DNA of 64,000 nucleotides from Cyclobacterium sp. SYSU L10401 (GTDB lineage: Bacteria > Bacteroidota > Bacteroidia > Cytophagales > Cyclobacteriaceae). Positions 1-7,810 of this stretch are shown here, in pieces (position 1 is the stretch's first letter; each line of letters starts with the position of its first letter). The notes below the pieces were generated by a model. It was not told where the DNA came from, searched no databases, and saw nothing but the letters and a program-made list of their open reading frames with translations. Where the stretch lies: assembly GCF_010993705.1 (NCBI RefSeq), contig NZ_WOFO01000009.1, forward strand, positions 1 to 64,000. Direction: 5' to 3'. The translations under genes and the position numbers were made by a program.

Positions 1-98
1 GTTACCGCGGATGCATCATAGAAGTGGTTTGGTGAGTTTTCCTAAAAACCCTCACCGAGGGGCCTACCCTCATCTTTATCATAGCTTACACAGCACAC

Positions 99-460
99 AT
101 CGTGTAGACGGCCCCGCCAGATTCCTCTAACGGGGAGCGCCTCACACACCACCGAGCGTACGGATCTCGTAGCTCCCCTGCATCCCGGCCCTTCGCTAAA
201 ATCTTTTACAAAAAGATTTCTTAACGCTCAGTCCTCTCATCCAACCTGTCAGGCCTCAGTATCCAGTTTCCCGCTAGTACGGGACAGGCTCAGTTCGTTG
301 GAACCGGGGTTTGCAGACTCGCTTCCTTCACTCCATGCTTTACAGCAAATGAGCCCCGCTTTGGCGGGACAGGCTTTGCGACTTGCTAGTGTTTCGGGGC
401 AGCCTGCCCTGACCCAGTCAGGGTTACCCCCGCGCTTAAGGGATACCGAAAGATCGGCAC
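99..460 (-). repeat. ORF-less structured intergenic repeat, copy A (possible group II intron-like RNA)
   Basis: On the minus strand the segment starts at GTGCCGATC (460) and ends at CTACACGAT (99), resembling the GUGNG start and AY end of group II introns. Its 3' part holds a strong hairpin with stem CCCCGTTAGA/TCTGGCGGGG and loop GGAA (112–135), a smaller GAGC..GCTC hairpin (154–175) followed by GGTGGTGTGTGAGG, and an AT-rich hairpin (199–219). Copy B (5835–6234) has the same order, and the linking sequence is nearly identical while the hairpin stems differ but still pair. That pattern fits a conserved RNA structure. The domain V-like hairpin is shorter than the usual 34 nt and no reverse transcriptase is present, so the intron reading is tentative. 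Positions 1–98 beyond it hold a small GGTGAG/CTCACC hairpin and no gene. Confidence 0.45.
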
Positions 461-692: not shown

Positions 693-1277
693 ATGCATAA
701 GACTTTAATTGATAATATTCAAGAAATGGTCCCCCTAAAGGCAGATGATATCTTGCTAATTGAGAATGCTTTCATTCCTGTTCAACTAAATAAAAAACAG
801 TTTTTACTTCAAAAAGGGGAATCATCCAACCACATGCGATTTGTAGCAGAAGGATGCCTCAAGCTATATCGTATTGAGGATACTGGCAAGGAGCATATTC
901 TTCAATTTGGGATTAAAGGTTGGTGGGTAAATGACCTTTATGCCTATTTGACTCAAAAGCCAGCCACATTTTTCATACAAGCCATTACCGATAGCACTGT
1001 TTTACAGGTTCACAGAGATCAACTCGATAAACTTTATGATAAGATTCATATGATGGATCGGTTTTTCAGAATTAAAACTCAGAATGGATATGTTGCACTT
1101 CAAGAACGAACAATTAACTCCATGAGTCAAACTGCTGAAGAGCGCTATTTTGAATTTGTAAAGAGGTACAGGGTTATGGAGCAACAGATTCCCCAATATA
1201 TGATTGCCTCGTACCTTGGAATAACGCCAGAACACCTAAGCGCACTTCGAAAAAATCTTGCCCGAAAGCTTTCTTAA
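693..1277 (+). CDS. Crp/Fnr family transcriptional regulator
   Basis: A 194-residue protein with the two-domain layout of Crp/Fnr regulators. The N-terminal cyclic-nucleotide-binding-type beta barrel spans about residues 20–120 (typical phrases LLQKGESS, VAEGCLKLYR, HILQFG). A C-terminal winged helix follows at about 160–190 (IPQYMIASYLGITPEHLSAL). The length fits the short Bacteroidota subgroup, which usually lacks the cAMP-contacting arginine–serine pair; I do not see a canonical cAMP pocket, so the effector is unknown. It lies 61 bp upstream of the cyclase-family gene on the same strand and is the obvious candidate regulator of the genes that follow to 4859. Family assignment is firm; the target is inferred from position. 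Confidence 0.88.
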   Translation: MHKTLIDNIQEMVPLKADDILLIENAFIPVQLNKKQFLLQKGESSNHMRFVAEGCLKLYRIEDTGKEHILQFGIKGWWVNDLYAYLTQKPATFFIQAITDSTVLQVHRDQLDKLYDKIHMMDRFFRIKTQNGYVALQERTINSMSQTAEERYFEFVKRYRVMEQQIPQYMIASYLGITPEHLSALRKNLARKLS

Positions 1278-1338
1278 GATACCTTAATGGATTTGGCCTA
1301 CATGGTTTGGAAATTTGCTCAAACAAATAATTCAAATC

Positions 1339-2316
1339 ATGAAAAAGACAAATTTGGTACTAGCCTTGCTTTTTGCAGGCCAATTGACCGTATTGGGTCA
1401 ACAAAATGAAACCGTAGGGAAAAGCCCTTGGGGAAAAGATGATGAAATAGGTTCATTGAATCTAATGTCTAATTCCACGCGATTCGAGGTATTATTTCAG
1501 ATCAAATCTGGTAAAACCTATGATTTAAGTGTTGAATATTTCGTGGGCATGCCCAGCTTCCACGCATTGGGTGACCCTCCTTATCAATACTGGTTGACCC
1601 ATACACCACATGGCACTATCGTGGACAACCCTAATGGACTTGGTGAAGCCATGAACCGCAAAGTGAGTTACACCGGAGATGCCATTTCTATGTACACCCA
1701 CATGGGAACACATATTGACGCACTTAACCATTTTGGTCTAAATGGAAAAATCTGGAATGGATTCACTCCTGAAGAACACTTGGGCGACAAAGGCTGGAAG
1801 AAGACCGGTGCTGAGACCATCCCTCCTATCATTGCGCGCGGTGTAATGATTGATGTTAAATCATTGAAAGGGGTACTTCCAAAGAACTATCGGATTACCG
1901 CCAATGATCTTCAGGAGGCGCTTAAAAAACAGCGAGTTGTACTTAAACCTGGTGATGTTGTTGTTATCCGCACAGGTCAAGCTGAGTTTTATGAGGATGC
2001 CGATCACTATCTCGACAACTATCCAGGTATCAGCCTTGCTGCAGTCAAGTGGCTTATCGAAGACAATGGTATCATGCTTCTTGGTGCAGACAACCTCTCA
2101 TTTGAAGCGTTTCCTCCAGAGCGAGAAGATAACTGGGTGCCAGTACATACTTACCTATTGGCAGAAAAAGGGGTGATGTTCATTGAACAGATGTACTTGG
2201 AAGAGCTGGCGAAAGATGAAGTGTATGAGTTTGCCTTCATTGCAGCATCACTGAAGCTGAAAGGTGCAAGTGGCTCACCCATGCGACCAATCGCTATTCC
2301 TATAAATACCAAATAA
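1339..2316 (+). CDS. Cyclase family protein (kynurenine formamidase-like), secreted
   Basis: This is a metal-dependent hydrolase of the cyclase/kynurenine-formamidase family. The signature HMGTHIDALNHFG gives the HxGTHxDxxxH metal-binding motif at about residue 115 of the chosen start, and a second conserved stretch (GDVVVIRTGQ) lies near 210. The N-terminus MKKTNLVLALLFAGQLTVLGQ is a typical signal peptide, so the enzyme probably acts in the periplasm. An in-frame TTG at 1315 would add eight residues ahead of the signal peptide; ATG 1339 is preferred because it begins directly with the lysine-rich signal. About 325 residues is normal for secreted members. It heads a tight run of genes, with 7 bp to the next. 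The substrate is unknown. Confidence 0.85.
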   Translation: MKKTNLVLALLFAGQLTVLGQQNETVGKSPWGKDDEIGSLNLMSNSTRFEVLFQIKSGKTYDLSVEYFVGMPSFHALGDPPYQYWLTHTPHGTIVDNPNGLGEAMNRKVSYTGDAISMYTHMGTHIDALNHFGLNGKIWNGFTPEEHLGDKGWKKTGAETIPPIIARGVMIDVKSLKGVLPKNYRITANDLQEALKKQRVVLKPGDVVVIRTGQAEFYEDADHYLDNYPGISLAAVKWLIEDNGIMLLGADNLSFEAFPPEREDNWVPVHTYLLAEKGVMFIEQMYLEELAKDEVYEFAFIAASLKLKGASGSPMRPIAIPINTK

Positions 2317-2323
2317 GCAGAAG

Positions 2324-2770
2324 ATGAACAACCAAATATTGCTTCTTCTTTCCTTTTTGGTTGGAATTATGGTGGTGATTCAAGGTGGGATAAATTCCCG
2401 ACTTGGTATTCTACTAAACAATTCCTTGCTGGCGACTTCCACAGCATTGACCATGGGTGCGAGTTTCACACTGATTGCGGTACTGATCACTGTTCGACAG
2501 TTTCCAAGTATGCATCAACTCAGAGAGATTCCTATCTATATGTGGGTAACCGGTGGGTTGCTGAGCTTTCTGGCGGTAACGCTTTTCTACTACATCATTC
2601 CGAAAGTGGGTATATCAACAGCTGTGACTTTTGGTTTAGCCGGGCAACTTGTTTTCGCAGCAATTGCCGGGCATTTTGGGTGGTTCAATATGCCGCTAGA
2701 GCCTATCACCATCAAGAAGATCGCAGGGTTGTTGTTGATGATCACAAGTGTTATTCTAATCAAAGCATAA
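2324..2770 (+). CDS. DUF606/YdcZ-family DMT membrane protein
   Basis: A 148-residue, very hydrophobic protein with about five predicted transmembrane helices (roughly 4–22, 35–58, 70–90, 95–113 and 126–146). The conserved start VGIMVVIQGGINSRLG and the motif VTFGLAGQLVFA match the DUF606/YdcZ family, half-size relatives of drug/metabolite transporters that are thought to work as dimers. It sits 7 bp after the cyclase gene and 1 bp before the acetyltransferase gene, so it is almost certainly co-transcribed with them. The exported substrate cannot be told from sequence. Confidence 0.8.
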   Translation: MNNQILLLLSFLVGIMVVIQGGINSRLGILLNNSLLATSTALTMGASFTLIAVLITVRQFPSMHQLREIPIYMWVTGGLLSFLAVTLFYYIIPKVGISTAVTFGLAGQLVFAAIAGHFGWFNMPLEPITIKKIAGLLLMITSVILIKA

Positions 2771-2771
2771 C

Positions 2772-3500
2772 ATGGATTTAATCAAAGCAAATACAAACAA
2801 TCTGGCTGCTCTCTGGAAAACTGGAGGTCGGCTGGCCGGACAATATATTGAAGAGCCAAGCTATCGATTAAGCATTTCAGGTAGCGGTGAATGGCCAAAC
2901 AAACTGTGGTTCACCAAACCAATGGACATGCAGGCAATCATGGATATCCAGCTCCAATGGAACATGGATAAACTATCACTTCCTGTTTGGGGCGATGACC
3001 TTCATAGGCAAGAATTGATGCTTAAAGCCTATGGTTTTGAAGAGAAACTCACGCAAGTAGCCATGTCAATGAACCTGAAAGATGCTCCTGATCATGCGGA
3101 GCGTGTCATCATTCAGAAAGTGACGAGTAAACCTTTAGCTGAAATTTGGTCACAGCTATTTCAGGAAGCATTCGGATATGAGATAAGTGCTGACACTGTG
3201 AGCCGAACTATGAATTCCATTGAGTATTTCATTGGCAAGCATGACGGAGTTCCTGTTGGTACCGCAGTACTCTTTGTGGATCCGAATGGTATTGCTGGAA
3301 TCCACTCCATGGGCATCATTCCGTCGCAGCGCAGAAAAGGTTATGCTGAAGAATTACTTATTCACATGATGAATATCGCCAGAATAAAGGGTGTAACAAA
3401 CGCCACCCTGCAAGCTTCTGATATGGGAAAGGGACTCTATTTCAAAATCGGCTTTCAGCAAGATTTTATTATCAAAACATTTATTAAACACAAAAACTAA
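2772..3500 (+). CDS. GNAT family N-acetyltransferase
   Basis: A 242-residue protein whose C-terminal half carries the GNAT fold. The acetyl-CoA-binding segment is at about residues 175–205 (GIHSMGIIPSQRRKGYAEELL, containing the Q/RxxGxG/A-type motif as QRRKGY), followed by the helix and strand ending in LYFKIGFQ. The first 110 residues are a diverged N-terminal region with tryptophans (WPNKLWFTKP), so this may be a tandem GNAT with one decayed half. It begins 1 bp after the DUF606 stop, which implies translational coupling. The acceptor substrate is unknown; detoxification by acetylation would fit the neighbours but is only inferred. Confidence 0.82.
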   Translation: MDLIKANTNNLAALWKTGGRLAGQYIEEPSYRLSISGSGEWPNKLWFTKPMDMQAIMDIQLQWNMDKLSLPVWGDDLHRQELMLKAYGFEEKLTQVAMSMNLKDAPDHAERVIIQKVTSKPLAEIWSQLFQEAFGYEISADTVSRTMNSIEYFIGKHDGVPVGTAVLFVDPNGIAGIHSMGIIPSQRRKGYAEELLIHMMNIARIKGVTNATLQASDMGKGLYFKIGFQQDFIIKTFIKHKN

Positions 3501-3507
3501 AGAACAA

Positions 3508-4140
3508 ATGAATTTACTAGATAAACTCAATTGGCGCTATGCCACAAAAGTCTTTGACCCTTCCATGAAGGTGTCAGAGGATGATTTAAACTTTCTAAAG
3601 GAAGCGATCCGGCTTTCGGTCTCTTCGTATGGCTTACAGATGTACAAAGTGTTGATTATCGAGAACCCGGAGATTCGAAAGGAACTGCGCAAAGCCTCAT
3701 GGGATCAAGCTCAAATAACGGATTCATCTCATCTGTTTGTTTTCTGCAACTACACTAGAAACCACGATCAACAAGTAGACAATTACATTCAACTCGTCAT
3801 TGATACCCAAAAGACTGAAAATATTCAGGGGCTGAAAAAGTATGGGGAGTCTATTAAATCCAGCATTGCGAATATGACCACCGAAGCGCGACAAAGCTGG
3901 TCAGAAAAACAGACCTATTTGGCTCTTAACAATCTGATTGTTGCATGCGCAGACCAGCAGATTGATGCCTGTCCAATGGAGGGATTTGATAAACAAGAGT
4001 ACAACCGTATTCTCGGTCTGGATGAAATGGGAGTCAATGCTTCGGTGATCGCCCCTGTAGGGTATAGGTCTAATAAAGATGAGACAAAAGGAAGGAGAAA
4101 AGTGCGAAAAACAATTGAAGAACTATTTTTAACTGCTTAA
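3508..4140 (+). CDS. NAD(P)H-dependent nitroreductase family oxidoreductase
   Basis: A 210-residue member of the FMN-dependent nitroreductase family, of the NfsB/YfkO type. Visible features are the N-terminal LNWRYATKVFDP, in which R and K contact FMN phosphate, the SSYGLQMYKVLII strand that follows the FMN site, and the C-terminal GVNASVIAPVGYRSNKDE segment ending in a basic tail. Such enzymes act as soluble homodimers that reduce nitroaromatics, quinones or flavins using NAD(P)H. It lies 7 bp after the GNAT gene in the same direction and 11 bp before the DUF4386 gene. A role in detoxifying electrophiles is plausible from the family and operon, but the substrate is not shown by the sequence. 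Confidence 0.87.
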   Translation: MNLLDKLNWRYATKVFDPSMKVSEDDLNFLKEAIRLSVSSYGLQMYKVLIIENPEIRKELRKASWDQAQITDSSHLFVFCNYTRNHDQQVDNYIQLVIDTQKTENIQGLKKYGESIKSSIANMTTEARQSWSEKQTYLALNNLIVACADQQIDACPMEGFDKQEYNRILGLDEMGVNASVIAPVGYRSNKDETKGRRKVRKTIEELFLTA

Positions 4141-4151
4141 TAAAGAAGAAA

Positions 4152-4859
4152 ATGAACACCAAAGTAAAAAATAAAGCAAGACTAACCGGTATTTTATATC
4201 TGCTGGTAATCATATCGGCTGGTTTTAGCCAAGGTTATGTTCGTGGAATGATTTTTATTCCAGATGATCCACAGGCAACCCTGTCAAACATCAATTCATC
4301 TGAAGGGCTTTTCCGTCTTGGCCTGGTAAGTGATTTATTGGCTTTCTTATTAGATGCTGTCATTTCAATATTACTCTATCAATTATTAAAGTCTGTCAAT
4401 AATACAATGGCTGTAATTGCTGCTGTTTTCCGTCTTTTGGCACACCCAGCCATTGCAAGCTTAAATCTTCTGAATCATTATATGGCTTTACAGGCTGCCA
4501 GTGGAAGTGGATTCATGTCAAGTTTGGGAATTGAGCAACAAGAGGCTTGGACAATACTTTTCATGAATGCACACAATGCGGGATATCTTTTGGCAGGAGC
4601 ATTCTTTGGCATTCATTGTTTGCTTTTGGGAATATTACTCTATCGTTCGGAACTATTTCCGAAAGTGTTTGGCATTTTAATGGTTCTAGCTGCCGGAGGC
4701 TATCTGCTTGAGACCTTTGGTAATTTTATATTTCCGGGTAATCAAATTGTTTTAGCCAATATTGTAGGTGTTTCAGCAGCAATTGGTGAAGTATCTCTTA
4801 CTTTCTTCCTATTGTTTAAAGGAGTAAAAGGAAAGCAAGACAATGCACATTTACTATAA
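4152..4859 (+). CDS. DUF4386 family membrane protein
   Basis: A 235-residue integral membrane protein with about six transmembrane helices (approximately 12–32, 55–80, 84–108, 130–155, 162–185, 195–222). The N-terminal KARLTGILYLLVIISAGFS and the C-terminal GGYLLETFGNFIFPG segment match DUF4386, a family without a known function that is common in soil bacteria next to stress genes. It is 11 bp after the nitroreductase gene and is the last gene of the tight run. A degraded fragment of a second, homologous gene lies at 5731–5812, so this family was once present here in two copies. Confidence 0.78.
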   Translation: MNTKVKNKARLTGILYLLVIISAGFSQGYVRGMIFIPDDPQATLSNINSSEGLFRLGLVSDLLAFLLDAVISILLYQLLKSVNNTMAVIAAVFRLLAHPAIASLNLLNHYMALQAASGSGFMSSLGIEQQEAWTILFMNAHNAGYLLAGAFFGIHCLLLGILLYRSELFPKVFGILMVLAAGGYLLETFGNFIFPGNQIVLANIVGVSAAIGEVSLTFFLLFKGVKGKQDNAHLL

Positions 4860-4866
4860 ATTGGCG

Positions 4867-4911
4867 AATGCGGGCTGAGATACATTCTCACTAAATCCTC
4901 ACTTATACATT
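4867..4911. repeat. Shortened remnant of the imperfect palindrome element
   Basis: The gap between the DUF4386 gene and the next gene contains AATGCGGGCTGA (4867–4878), identical to 12 bases of the left arm of copy A (538–549). It is followed about 20 bases later by CCTCACTTATAC, which resembles the right arm of copy A with a small deletion. The order and orientation are the same as in copy A. This suggests a deleted copy of the element and a break between the upstream operon and the gene at 4961. The match is short, so chance cannot be excluded. Confidence 0.3.
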
Positions 4912-4960
4912 TTAGGCAATCGGAAACGAATTTTTAACTCAAAAATTAGAGAATAATAAT

Positions 4961-5683
4961 ATGACAACTTTAGTAATCGGAGCTTCAGGCTCAACTGGAA
5001 AACATTTAGTTGATCAACTGCTGCAGTCTAATCAACAGGTAAAGGTCATTGTTCGTTCACCTGAAAAATTACCCGAATCCTGGAAAACCAACAAGCAGTT
5101 ATCTATCTTTCAAGCCAATGTTTCAGAAATTACTGTAGATGAAATGGCCAAATATGTAAAAGATTGCAATGCAATTGCTTCTTGTTTGGGCCATAGCCTT
5201 ACATGGCAAGGTATGTATGGGAAACCACGGAAATTAGTTACTGATGCTGTCAGCCTCACCTGTAGGGCAATTTTAAAAAACGCACCCAACAATCCTGTGA
5301 AAGTTGTATTGATGAATACTTCGGGCAACCGTAACAGAGACCTCAATGAACCCAATTCTGTTGGTGAAAGAATAGTAGTATCATTACTTAGATTATTGAT
5401 ACCTCCGCATGTGGATAATGAAAAAGCTGCCGATTACCTAAGAACTAAGATTGGGCAAGAAAATAATCTAATTCAATGGGTAGCTGTTCGTCCCGATGCT
5501 TTAATAAATGAGGACAAAGTCAGCGAATACCAGGTTTTCCCTTCACCAACTAGAAGTGCTTTTTTTAACGCAGGAAAAGTGAGTAGAATAAACGTTGGTC
5601 ATTTTATGGCCAAACTAATTACAGAAAAAGACTTGTGGGCGAAATGGAAAGGACAGATGCCCGTAATCTACAAATCTGCTTAA
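4961..5683 (+). CDS. NAD(P)-binding SDR-like protein
   Basis: A 240-residue protein with a classical Rossmann start, MTTLVIGASGSTGKHLVDQLL, giving the TGxxG-type dinucleotide motif as GASGSTG at residues 7–13, and the VRSP turn after strand 2 as in NADP-dependent atypical short-chain dehydrogenases (NAD(P)H-binding family, PF13460 type). Later blocks VVLMNTSGNRNRD and WVAVRPDALIN are typical of NmrA/flavin-reductase-like members. There is no clear YxxxK catalytic pair, so it may bind a cofactor without classical SDR activity. It is separated from the DUF4386 gene by 101 bp that contain an element remnant, so it may have its own promoter. Confidence 0.8.
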   Translation: MTTLVIGASGSTGKHLVDQLLQSNQQVKVIVRSPEKLPESWKTNKQLSIFQANVSEITVDEMAKYVKDCNAIASCLGHSLTWQGMYGKPRKLVTDAVSLTCRAILKNAPNNPVKVVLMNTSGNRNRDLNEPNSVGERIVVSLLRLLIPPHVDNEKAADYLRTKIGQENNLIQWVAVRPDALINEDKVSEYQVFPSPTRSAFFNAGKVSRINVGHFMAKLITEKDLWAKWKGQMPVIYKSA

Positions 5684-5730
5684 ATAAGTGTTCAACGCAA
5701 AATAAATGAACAACTTGCTTCGCTCCCTAA

Positions 5731-5812
5731 GTTGCAGCTACCTATGGTTATCTGCTTAAGACCATCGATAGGTCAATATATCCAGACAATCAACTTGTCT
5801 TAGCCAATAAGA
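5731..5812 (+). pseudogene. Relic of a second DUF4386 gene (3' part only)
   Basis: Positions 5731–5812 align without gaps to the 3' part of the DUF4386 gene at about 4683–4764. In frame the relic reads VAATYGYLLKTIDRSIYPDN, against VLAAGGYLLETFGNFIFPGN in the intact gene, and then shares NQ-VLAN. Nothing upstream (5684–5730) matches, and there is no start codon in context, so the rest has been lost. A small CAACTT/AAGTTG hairpin (5711–5734) marks its left edge. The relic ends 22 bases before the 3' end of repeat copy B, which points to recombination or insertion at this site. Confidence 0.6.
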
Positions 5813-5834
5813 GAAAATTAAAAGCCAGTGCACA

Positions 5835-6234
5835 ATCGAGTAGCCCAACCTGAGCTAAATAGCTCAGGTTGAGGCTCTCTCACCACCGAGCGTACGGGTC
5901 TCGTAGCTCCCCTGCATCCCGGCCCTTCGCTAAAATGATTCGCCGCGGCGAATCATTTTTTAACGCTCAGTCCCAGTTCACTGGATTATATTTGAGGTAA
6001 TAGGAAAGCATGGATTCATACCCCTTTCTTCTTAAGCGGGACAAAGTGATTGTAGTAATCAGAATTGGACTCTGGGCTACTGCCCATCCACCTTTTCTGG
6101 TTGCAGCCCGCTGCCTGGCCTCCCGATACGCAGTGCTATCGGGACAGGCTTTGCCACTTGCTTGGCTTCGGGACAGCCTGCCCTGACCCAGTCAGGGTTA
6201 CCCCAGCGCTTAAGGGATACCGAAAGATCGGCAC
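5835..6234 (-). repeat. ORF-less structured intergenic repeat, copy B (possible group II intron-like RNA)
   Basis: This is the second copy of the element at 99–460, in the same orientation. On the minus strand it runs from GTGCCGATC (6234) to CTACTCGAT (5835). Shared blocks are the 5' part with GGTATCCCTTAAGCGC and CCCTGAC/GTCAGGG, and the 3' part from CTGAGCGTTAA to GGTGGTG. Three stems differ from copy A yet stay paired: AACCTGAGCT/AGCTCAGGTT (5847–5870), the GAGC..GCTC hairpin with a changed loop (5888–5909), and a perfect 28-base palindrome (5932–5959). Its middle includes a hairpin region at 6057–6120 that recurs at 7738–7810. No protein-coding content is evident; short open frames here follow the repeat and differ between copies. 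Confidence 0.45.
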
Positions 6235-6301
6235 AGGCTTTTCACCCGTTGGAACGGTCAACTTTTTGACCTATATTCACCATTCAAGGCACACACAGCA
6301 C

Positions 6302-6404
6302 CTAAGAAAGCATGGGGCAGCCAGCGGTAAAAGGAAGTTTTTCCTCGAGTAAACTTTTGTTCTAACAAACAAGTAATTGCTCCGAAATGCCCCACACTTC
6401 TTAG
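6302..6404 (-). repeat. Imperfect palindrome element, copy B (attC-like in layout)
   Basis: The left arm is CTAAGAAAGCATGGGGC (6302–6318). The right arm at 6389–6404 has the reverse complement CTAAGAAGTGTGGGGC, so the arms pair over 16–17 bases with two G·U pairs on the minus strand and one bulge. Copy A pairs in the same place with a different sequence (GTATAAGC), which is a covariation. The conserved parts between copies are CACACA before the left arm, CTCCGAAAT or GTCCGAAAT before the right arm, and ACCGTTAGC or ACCGTTGCG just after it. It sits between repeat copy B and the Fic promoter. Confidence 0.5.
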
Positions 6405-6486
6405 CTGCGGACCGTTAGCAGCAAGCAAAAAAACGATAGTGCTACGAATAATATGGTTTTTTGATGCAAAATAAGCAACGATTAAT

Positions 6487-6524
6487 TTTGATTTGCGACG
6501 AATAAAAACTACTTTCGTTGCAAA
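6487..6524 (+). promoter_or_regulatory. Fic gene promoter with operator-like palindrome
   Basis: TTTG (6487–6490) and TACTTTCG (6510–6517) are 19 bases apart, close to the Bacteroidota vegetative consensus TTTG / TAnnTTTG. An inverted repeat, TTTGCGACGAA (6492–6502) and TTCGTTGCAAA (6514–6524), brackets the −7 box with an 11-base spacer and only one mismatch between arms. A further GCAACGA half-site lies a little upstream, at about 6474. A protein bound here would block RNA polymerase. The winged-helix C-terminus of the Fic protein is one candidate ligand; this is inference. Confidence 0.55.
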
Positions 6525-6535
6525 TATTGCATTGA

Positions 6536-7708
6536 ATGGAGGCTTTTATACATCAACAAGACAATTGGCCTGAATTTACATGGAACAGTAATGATTTCAT
6601 AAGCCTGTTAAGTGAAGCACGAAATTTACAGGGCAGACTAATTGGTAAAATGGAGACATTGGGCTTCGAATTAAGAAATGAGGCCATACTTGATACATTG
6701 ACACTTGATGTAATAAAGTCCTCAGAGATTGAGGGAGAATTTCTAAACCCAAACCAGGTGCGTTCTTCAATTGCCCGTAGATTAGGAATGGAAATAGCAG
6801 GAGCAGTTGAATCTGACAGGAATGTAGACGGAGTAGTTGAAATGATGCTTGATGCAACGCAAAATTGTTTTGCACCATTGACTGCCGAGAGACTTTTTGA
6901 TTGGCATGCCGCTTTATTTCCGACAGGTAGAAGTGGAATGTATAAGATTACGGTTGCAGACTGGAGAAAGGACACCACGGGGCCAATGCAAGTTGTATCC
7001 GGAGCAATTGGAAAAGAGAAAGTTCATTTTCAGGCTCCTGATCCTGAATTAGTGGGAAAGGAAATGCACCGGTTTATAGAATGGTTTAATAACGATAAAA
7101 TTGATTTGGTTATAAAGGCTGCAATTGCACATTTGTGGTTTGTAACTATTCACCCTTTTGAAGATGGAAATGGCAGAATAACAAGGGCATTGACAGATAT
7201 GCTTCTTGCCCAGTCTGATAAAAGTAACCAGCGATTCTATAGTATGTCAGCACAGATCAGATTAGAAAGAAATCAGTATTATGAGATGCTGGAAAAAACA
7301 CAAAAAGGTAATTTAGATATAACCAATTGGATTGTTTGGTTTTTAAACTGTTTGATTAATGCTTTGAAATCTACGGATTCAGTTCTAACAAGCGTATTGT
7401 TCAAAGCTGAATTTTGGCAAAAGCACATGGAAACTGTTATAAATGAGCGACAAAGAAAATTGTTAAATAAGTTAATGGACGGATTTGAAGGGAAATTAAC
7501 ATCTTCAAAATGGGCAAAAATTGCAAAATGTTCAAAAGATTCAGCTGTTCGGGACATAAACGATCTGATTGAAAAAGCAATATTGAAAAAAGAAGCAGCA
7601 GGAGGAAGAAGTACAAATTATGAATTGATAGGAATGCCAGCTGGTAATCGAGTATCCCGACCTGAGCTATATAAAATGGTCTCCTCTAGCCGAAAAGAAA
7701 TTCGATGA
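6536..7708 (+). CDS. Fic family protein (class II AMP-transferase) with C-terminal winged helix
   Basis: The core motif HPFEDGNGR (residues 206–214) matches HPFxxGNGR, including the catalytic histidine and the anion-binding loop. The flap lies at about 149–168. The N-terminal region contains SSEIEG (62–67), fitting the inhibitory motif (S/T)xxxE(G/N), so the enzyme is predicted to be self-inhibited by its own N-terminal helix (class II). The first 60 residues resemble the DUF4172-type extension found in many stand-alone Fic proteins. The last 90 residues (about 295–385) look like a winged-helix domain (SKWAKIAKCSKDSAVRDINDL, then GRSTNYEL). Fic enzymes usually transfer AMP to a protein hydroxyl. 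There is no adjacent antitoxin gene, as expected for class II. The target is unknown. Confidence 0.88.
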   Translation: MEAFIHQQDNWPEFTWNSNDFISLLSEARNLQGRLIGKMETLGFELRNEAILDTLTLDVIKSSEIEGEFLNPNQVRSSIARRLGMEIAGAVESDRNVDGVVEMMLDATQNCFAPLTAERLFDWHAALFPTGRSGMYKITVADWRKDTTGPMQVVSGAIGKEKVHFQAPDPELVGKEMHRFIEWFNNDKIDLVIKAAIAHLWFVTIHPFEDGNGRITRALTDMLLAQSDKSNQRFYSMSAQIRLERNQYYEMLEKTQKGNLDITNWIVWFLNCLINALKSTDSVLTSVLFKAEFWQKHMETVINERQRKLLNKLMDGFEGKLTSSKWAKIAKCSKDSAVRDINDLIEKAILKKEAAGGRSTNYELIGMPAGNRVSRPELYKMVSSSRKEIR

Positions 7709-7737
7709 AATTCTAGGGTATTGGACTAACCGAAACA

Positions 7738-7810
7738 AATCAGAATCGGACTCTGATCCTGACGCTGTCAGGACCCTCCCCCTTTTCTGGTTGCATCCCG
7801 CTACCTGGCC
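7738..7810 (-). repeat. Fragment C of the structured intergenic repeat
   Basis: This matches 6057–6120 of copy B: AATCAGAAT(C/T)GGACTCTG, then a hairpin, then CCTTTTCTGGTTGCA(T/G)CCCGCT(A/G)CCTGGCC. The hairpin between the conserved blocks is TCCTGAC/GTCAGGA here and GGGC/GCCC in copy B, so the stem is kept while the sequence changes. The other blocks of the repeat are absent. It begins 29 bases after the Fic stop codon, so the Fic gene is also flanked on both sides by repeat material. Confidence 0.5.

Follow-up and report, generated by a model that had tools for sequence, protein, structure and literature searches.

Group II introns of the IIC-attC kind are described as inserting at stem-loops and lying antisense to cassettes (PMC7923331, PMC4424553), and the former account gives CGC as the group IIC form of the triad in domain V (D5). 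A report on RmInt1 deals with the inactivation and fragmentation of group II introns in bacteria (PMC4496777). Palindromic elements are described for the REP/REPIN sequences with their RAYTs (PMC3733652, PMC6006769) and for Rickettsia (PMC10969869).

The window, that is, the whole stretch of DNA that was analysed, comprised the first 64 kb of a 244,690-base contig from a Cyclobacterium genome of 5.9 Mb in 22 contigs. An earlier reading of the letters alone (the sequence-only reading) had placed two structured repeats without an open frame, copies A and B, at 99–460 and 5835–6234. Their shared minus-strand blocks were confirmed (88 nt at 94% and 62 nt at 95%), with the order conserved. The extents were wrong: by comparison with intact relatives, copy A runs from 524 to 99 (426 nt; 5' GTGTGTACC..., 3' ...CTACACGAT) and copy B from 6296 to 5835 (462 nt; 5' GTGTGTGCC..., 3' ...CTACTCGAT), both on the minus strand, the 5' end of copy A being set by its match to these relatives. 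GTGCC (around 460 and 6234), formerly taken for the end of the element, lies inside a palindromic insert that splits GGGTGAAA|GTCCCTTAAG of the intact introns. A complete intron with a short D5 at 99–460 was ruled out, as the intact relatives put the 5' end at 524 and have an 8-bp lower D5 helix, the 5' arm of which is missing in A and B. Compared with its own genome, copy B gave 20 match places, with about ten loci outside the window, every one partial; the other copies in this genome are truncated and differ from each other by large deletions.

The intact form was found through a locus of the same genome (L022) that holds the 5' half of an intact intron at a contig end, with an Rfam group-II-D1D4-3 match of 122.9 bits followed by a reverse transcriptase (RT) frame. 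A search with this RT gave matches at E ≤ 1e-30 in 50 of 148 genomes of the family. The closest matches included complete introns, which begin with GTGTGTGCC..., carry D1, a D4 with a frame of 427–440 aa, D5 (CCGCCGTATACGAGACCCGTACGTACGGTGG) and D6, and end in ...CTACTCGAT|T. The RT-bearing relatives have D1 (group-II-D1D4-3), D6 and the intron ends in common with copies A and B, and in addition a full D5 with CGC. Group-II-D1D4-3 was matched at 52.6–122.9 bits (gathering threshold 32) in L022 and in 11 of the 12 RT-bearing loci tested, the exception being L066. The one frame tested against TIGR04416 (group II RT/maturase), the 426-aa frame of L058, scored 367.9 bits (cut-off 300), and this length, with the position of the match (9–358), suggests that the RT of these relatives may have no En domain. 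The 5' arm of D5 is CGCC in all nine copies with a long RT frame and an intact D5; in our own reading, which is not that of a IIC-specific model, it would hold the catalytic triad. Judged by these shared parts, copies A and B are what is left, after loss of the ORF, of a group II intron that shows group IIC features. The sequence-only reading had offered a 'degenerate intron family' among its options, and this holds insofar as the ends, D1, the 3' half of D5 and D6 belong to a group II intron that survives with its RT in related genomes.

Insertion sites were compared with 1498 random positions by scoring inverted repeats in the 150 nt upstream of 39 intron 5' ends. The median score was 13 at intron ends and 7 at random positions, and 31 of the 39 ends (30 of 38 if L001 and L015, which are one locus, are counted once) reached the 99th percentile of 11, the other eight falling below this threshold. 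The 5' exon of copy A carries a putative attC-like imperfect inverted repeat at 525–650 on the minus strand (score 12), and that of copy B one at 6297–6425, also on the minus strand (score 13). Folded as DNA, 526–650 formed an 18-bp outer stem (z -1.88, with 8 of 200 shuffles at least as good), and 6289–6425, which includes 8 intron bases, gave z -2.00 (7 of 200 shuffles at least as good), a long hairpin being obtained for either exon. Within the window, where orientation was counted, copies A and B are antisense to the plus-strand genes at 693–7708. These small genes are Crp/Fnr-like, cyclase/arylformamidase-like, acetyltransferase-like, nitroreductase-like, NAD(P)-binding and Fic-like, or encode membrane proteins, and together with the attC-like repeats by A and B the run resembles an integrase-free cassette array. 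Positions 5731–5809 repeat 4683–4761 directly at 73%, so that part of the gene at 4152–4859 is present a second time in degenerate form.

Since none of the 12 genus genomes contained an integron integrase over the cut-off, the intron sites are termed attC-like only, and an integron with IntI was dropped as an explanation (0 of 12 genomes with such a match). The RT-bearing relatives resemble the group IIC-attC introns in the CGC of D5, the RT/maturase frame in D4 and the position at the foot of inverted repeats, as do the introns of the window in lying antisense to cassette-like genes. They are unlike them in that A and B have neither RT nor the CGC of D5, the hosts have no integrase over the cut-off, and the 5' exons, which end in ...T, do not clearly show TTGT|T.

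What interrupts the relics is a second element. The perfect palindrome of 28 nt in copy B and the AAATCTTTT hairpin in copy A turned out to represent one and the same element of about 65 nt, here called P2, with the layout RGGACYGAGCGTNAARAAA - variable hairpin - TTTTAGCGARGGGCCRGGNNGNGGG. It was searched for with a covariance model (R1) built from seven copies, copy A among them; its E-values are rough. In copy A, P2 lies at 235 to 172 on the minus strand (R1 match of 87.7 bits, copy A being one of the model-building sequences) and by the site map connects intron position about 198, in D1, with position about 1778, in D5, so that about 1.58 kb is gone, including the RT frame. Only the 3' half of domain V remains behind it (TACGAGATCCGTACGCTCGGTGG; 149–171, minus strand), the CGC-bearing 5' arm being absent, followed by the domain VI hairpin CCCCGTTAGA/TCTGGCGGGG and the intron 3' end (99–148, minus strand). 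Subthreshold Rfam matches inside the copies were to D1D4-3 and D1D4-4 (23.6 and 16.4 bits), with the D1D4-3 match of copy A at 249–349.

Copy B carries P2 in domain V at 5974 to 5906 on the minus strand (R1 match of 66.1 bits), where it takes the place of the CGCCNNN of an intact D5 and includes the 28-nt palindrome. The 3' half of domain V, the domain VI hairpin AACCTGAGCT/AGCTCAGGTT and the intron 3' end follow at 5835–5905 (minus strand). The 3' tail of a second P2 was recognised at 6102–6120 (minus strand) by an eye match to the tails that P2 has in L032 and L026; it corresponds to a site in the RT frame (intron position about 1629) and forms a deletion junction. Next to it, a piece of the RT frame from its 3' end survives at 5976–6101 (minus strand), aligning at 82–86% with the corresponding part of the RT in five relatives. 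The earlier statement that no reverse transcriptase is present therefore holds for copy A, which has no RT frame, and has to be amended for copy B, which keeps these roughly 126 nt. In neither copy did we find the features of a functional group II intron: domain V is broken by the replacement of CGCCNNN with P2, and there is no RT of their own.

Of three hairpin pairs previously said to change together, two are real paired stems, namely the D6 hairpin and the P2 hairpin; the third, 6065–6075 against fragment C, falls within the RT-frame remnant. The D6 difference between the copies is not a fresh compensation either, as it matches two D6 subtypes present in intact relatives, copy A being of the L055 type and copy B of the L057 type.

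A third intron relic, fragment C, lies at 7647–7810 (minus strand) and was recognised by direct repeats, with a genome match at 7774–7810 and the remainder assigned by eye. It consists of the 3' tail of a P2, an RT-frame remnant with another palindrome, and the 3' end of D6. The C-terminal codons (7647–7708) of the Fic-like frame at 6536–7708 overlap the antisense of its D6 remnant. A further group II intron, of another type, is represented by its 5' end at 1–98 (minus strand), with an Rfam group-II-D1D4-2 match at 71 to 1 (38.1 bits, gathering threshold 36). It begins with GTGTGC immediately past the final base of copy A, with zero exon between them, and is cut off by the contig end. In Rhodonellum psychrophilum (L135, about 764–873) the same zero-gap D1D4-2 junction was found, 96% alike over 110 nt; the upstream relic and the site differ.

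P2 is widespread within the family. R1 matches were obtained in 12 of 12 genus genomes (E ≤ 1e-3), in 66 of 148 family genomes from 45 of 84 genera (E ≤ 1e-5), and in only 8 of 296 phylum genomes (E ≤ 1e-6), five of these eight belonging to the same family; the family and phylum searches were run with stricter filters, by which weak matches are lost. A pattern scan of named genomes gave 82 stretches, mainly in Cyclobacteriaceae, together with Maribacter, Croceivirga and some MAGs. A regular-expression search over 235 loci yielded 128 distinct P2 copies, of which 53 are flanked, on one side or both, by intron sequence on the same strand, two on the opposite strand only (both in L142) and 73 by no intron sequence. 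Hosts other than introns include RHS/YD-repeat genes, a tyrosine recombinase gene, CRISPR arrays, tRNA remnants, purine-rich simple repeats and a probable TPP-riboswitch leader; for RHS, the orientation of CRISPR repeats, tRNA and the TPP riboswitch these names are our assumption from sequence motifs. The leader copies are those of L122, L125 and L154 (Croceivirga, Maribacter), in what we take, again from a motif, to be a TPP-riboswitch leader. Tandem P2 arrays have periods of 69, 195 and about 247. Apparent CRISPR repeats contain P2 in L103, L105, L236 and L237, and in the last two the P2-carrying repeat-spacer units are amplified (periods of about 247 and 195).

In Rfam, no match up to E 10 overlapped 172–235 or 5906–5974, and in the open-licence literature on palindromes nothing was recognised as P2. 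From its distribution and empty sites P2 looks mobile and dispersed, and it is apparently undescribed. The introns themselves are ordinary and belong to a known kind; what makes the locus interesting is P2. The earlier suggestion of an undescribed structured element stands for this nested palindrome and falls for the repeat as a whole. Another palindrome, P1 (GCCTGTCCCGN{3,14}CGGGA), was rejected as an intron-specific insert, with only 4 of its 24 own-genome copies near intron sequence. Of the own-genome matches to GCCTGTCCCG...CGGGA, 20 of 24 lie away from introns, mostly inside another dispersed repeat (e.g. GCGAGATTCTCCCGATTAAGGATCGGGACAGGCTATGTGGCC).

A palindromic and dispersed element in a genus in which all 12 genomes carry Y1_Tnp genes invites comparison with REP/REPIN palindromes moved by a Y1 (RAYT) transposase, and P2 shares with these small size, dispersal and occasional location inside ORFs (PMC3733652, PMC6006769). 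In contrast to them, P2 is about 65 nt long with conserved asymmetric flanks, substitutes target bases at intron sites, mostly has no GTAG/CGTC tag and has no link to a RAYT at the four loci examined (PMC3733652, PMC6006769). Of the 128 copies, 3 have the tag or its complement close to the 5' end and 23 close to the 3' end, which leaves 125 and 105 copies, respectively, without it; no P2 was found in the surroundings of the four Y1 loci examined, among 52 matches listed, and at intron sites P2 mostly substitutes 7–10 bp. An ordinary palindrome of this type is therefore unsupported, and we regard it as unlikely. The Rickettsia elements are likewise palindromes inserted within genes; P2 differs in being shorter, in carrying stop codons, in causing frameshifts or stops in the few genic cases read by eye, and in being present as well in introns, in CRISPR repeats and in what is probably a riboswitch leader (PMC10969869). 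Keeping of the reading frame after the Rickettsia fashion was rejected for P2, as the few RHS and recombinase cases read by eye were frameshifted or stopped; in the RHS pairs L128 and L142 the net gain is 56.

The claim that the stems change and yet keep pairing was borne out strongly for P2. The covariation set comprised 135 R1 matches (128 distinct, from 85 sources; L194 and L195 not included). Over the 128 distinct copies, 96.9% of the stem cells were paired, against 81.4% in shuffled data, in an alignment that was itself fitted to the model, and double-sided changes numbered 317 cells against 85 in the shuffles. Selection on RNA as a rule leaves G-U pairs. The variable stem, however, contained 1116 Watson-Crick pairs, 11 G-U pairs and 21 unpaired among 1148 cells (1.0% G-U), whereas the outer and middle pairs had 66 G-U among 768 (8.6%). 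In L135 (about 1150–1215), one P2 consists of its 3' half and a nearly perfect inverted copy of that half, the outcome to be expected of snap-back (template-switch) copying. Because the variable stem is almost without G-U pairs and because of this inverted duplication, DNA-level copying is favoured, and the variable stem would fit copying of one arm from the other better than RNA selection. The 'mark of selection on RNA structure' was accordingly not established. Folding of the outer and middle part of P2 as RNA or single-stranded DNA may be compatible with the G-U use of these pairs. A regulatory or structural RNA under selection that arose from intron ends would account for the covarying stems and for the mainly sense orientation of P2 in host genes; the nearly exclusive Watson-Crick pairing of the variable stem and the large deletions among the own-genome copies argue against it, and we consider it extremely improbable.

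Filled and empty sites were compared in 61 unfiltered pairs, which include false ones (P2 against P2 in L007, L036, L116 and L180). The modal insert was 64–65 nt (19 of 61 pairs) and the modal loss 7–8 nt (18 of 61); the net gain was 55–58 in 33 of 61 pairs, with +57 as the mode (16 of 61), and the replaced length ranged from 1 to 44 in the unfiltered set. At intron sites P2 mostly takes the place of 7–10 bp, and in CRISPR repeats of L236 it was inserted with almost no loss. The site map was made from the 53 same-strand copies on the plus strand only, and is silent on orientation; 37 of them mapped on both sides, 14 on one side and two on neither. Seven intron sites were observed, starting after about 118, 296, 465, 1333, 1629, 1632 and 1772 in the coordinates of L058, the last being D5, with lost bases such as GCATGCAGTG, GGAGATC, GGACAGGG, AAATACCA, GGAGTCGT, GTAGAACA and CGCCAAG.

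With respect to strand, P2 has the same orientation as the intron in 53 of the 55 copies flanked by intron sequence, both exceptions being in L142; these copies share descent and are not independent, and it is the seven observed sites that count. Outside introns, 75 copies were judged and 20 passed the rule of an abutting open frame of at least 150 aa on one strand. Nineteen of the 20 were in sense orientation and one antisense (L142); after similar flanks were collapsed, 15 were sense and one antisense (binomial p 0.0005). Among the 148 family genomes, P2 and the intron RT occurred together in 35, RT only in 15, P2 only in 31 and neither in 67 (odds ratio 5.0, uncorrected for phylogeny), so that P2 was present in 35 of 50 genomes with RT and in 31 of 98 others, these 31 having no RT detected at E ≤ 1e-30. 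Movement through RNA is suggested by the intron-strand copies (53 of 55), the sense genic sites (15 of 16) and the co-occurrence of P2 with RT. P2 would then enter transcripts (intron RNA, mRNA, CRISPR precursor, riboswitch leader) in the sense direction, substituting a short stretch, and be fixed in DNA by the RT of the very group II introns that it parasitises, which would make it a hyperparasite of introns. Against this stand the 31 P2 genomes without detected RT and the shared descent of the copies, and a purine-rich target could produce the same strand bias; we hold RNA-borne movement to be quite unlikely.

The D5 site bears directly on the fate of the introns. Here P2 replaces CGCCNNN, seven bases that include CGC, so that the lower 5' arm is gone and the 3' arm is left partnerless, as in A and B. 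Among 52 D5-site pattern matches, 12 have P2 in D5, and none of these 12 has an RT frame of at least 380 aa; in nine of the ten copies that do have one, D5 is uninterrupted, and the tenth (L073) has an assembly gap there. The class 'other' among the 52 contains chance matches as well as L034 and L042, two further copies in which P2 evidently lies in D5, both with short frames. Since the frame also falls below this length in 12 further copies whose D5 is intact, the association of D5 with RT may at least in part reflect general decay, the copies moreover being non-independent.

The sequence-only reading had also proposed a trans-mobilised family. In such a family, live introns without a frame would spread by the RTs of related introns, with P2 serving as a ribozyme part in an altered domain V. 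P2-in-D5 copies do occur in Cyclobacterium, Pleomorphovibrio, Lunatimonas and Belliella, the same genome carries, at a contig end, the 5' part of one of the family's RT genes, and the stems keep pairing. However, the CGC and the entire lower 5' arm of D5 are lost in both A and B, which leaves the 3' arm without a partner, copies are truncated with deletions that differ between them, and no P2-in-D5 copy has a long RT frame (0 of 12). For this last reason P2 as part of the ribozyme was dropped as the main reading, and spread in trans is in our view very improbable.

We return to deletion as the origin of copy A. Five of the 37 copies mapped on both sides join two different sites (118|206, 118|1636, 198|1778 for copy A, 296|1640 and 1334|1637), and a site at 198–206 was inferred from two of these five junctions. 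Because the five junctions, that of copy A among them, end on P2 sites, the missing 1.58 kb of copy A would be best explained by a deletion between two P2 copies.

Taken together, it is highly probable that A, B and C are dead IIC-type introns at attC-like stem-loops that were invaded by P2 and lost their RT by deletion. Intron identity, the loss of D5, the dispersal of P2 with empty sites and the deletions ending at P2 sites are legible in the DNA itself, while the loss of splicing in A and B and the order of events are what we infer from them. At the outset a retromobile group IIC intron would have inserted at the foot of attC-like stem-loops, antisense to cassette-like genes, and small palindromic elements would then have invaded it. 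With seven bases of domain V replaced by P2, among them the CGC (catalytic triad), splicing and retrohoming should no longer be possible, unless D5 can work without its triad. Copy A would have lost its RT frame through recombination or deletion between copies of P2 lying at two sites, and copy B has a similar junction. The variable stem of P2 would stay paired mainly through arm-to-arm copying at the DNA level and not through selection on RNA. Like the RmInt1 fragments, the copies are inactivated and fragmented; they differ from what is described there in that a mobile palindrome would here have caused the inactivation, by inserting into the intron and through deletion between the palindrome's copies (PMC4496777).

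The locus would thus illustrate one route to an ORF-less bacterial group II intron, in which mobile palindromes break the core and deletion between them removes the RT. Covarying stems between repeat copies need not signal selection on RNA. P2 itself appears to be a small mobile element with an unusual signature: 7–10 bp mostly substituted at intron sites, a strong sense bias, and a perfect but variable stem.
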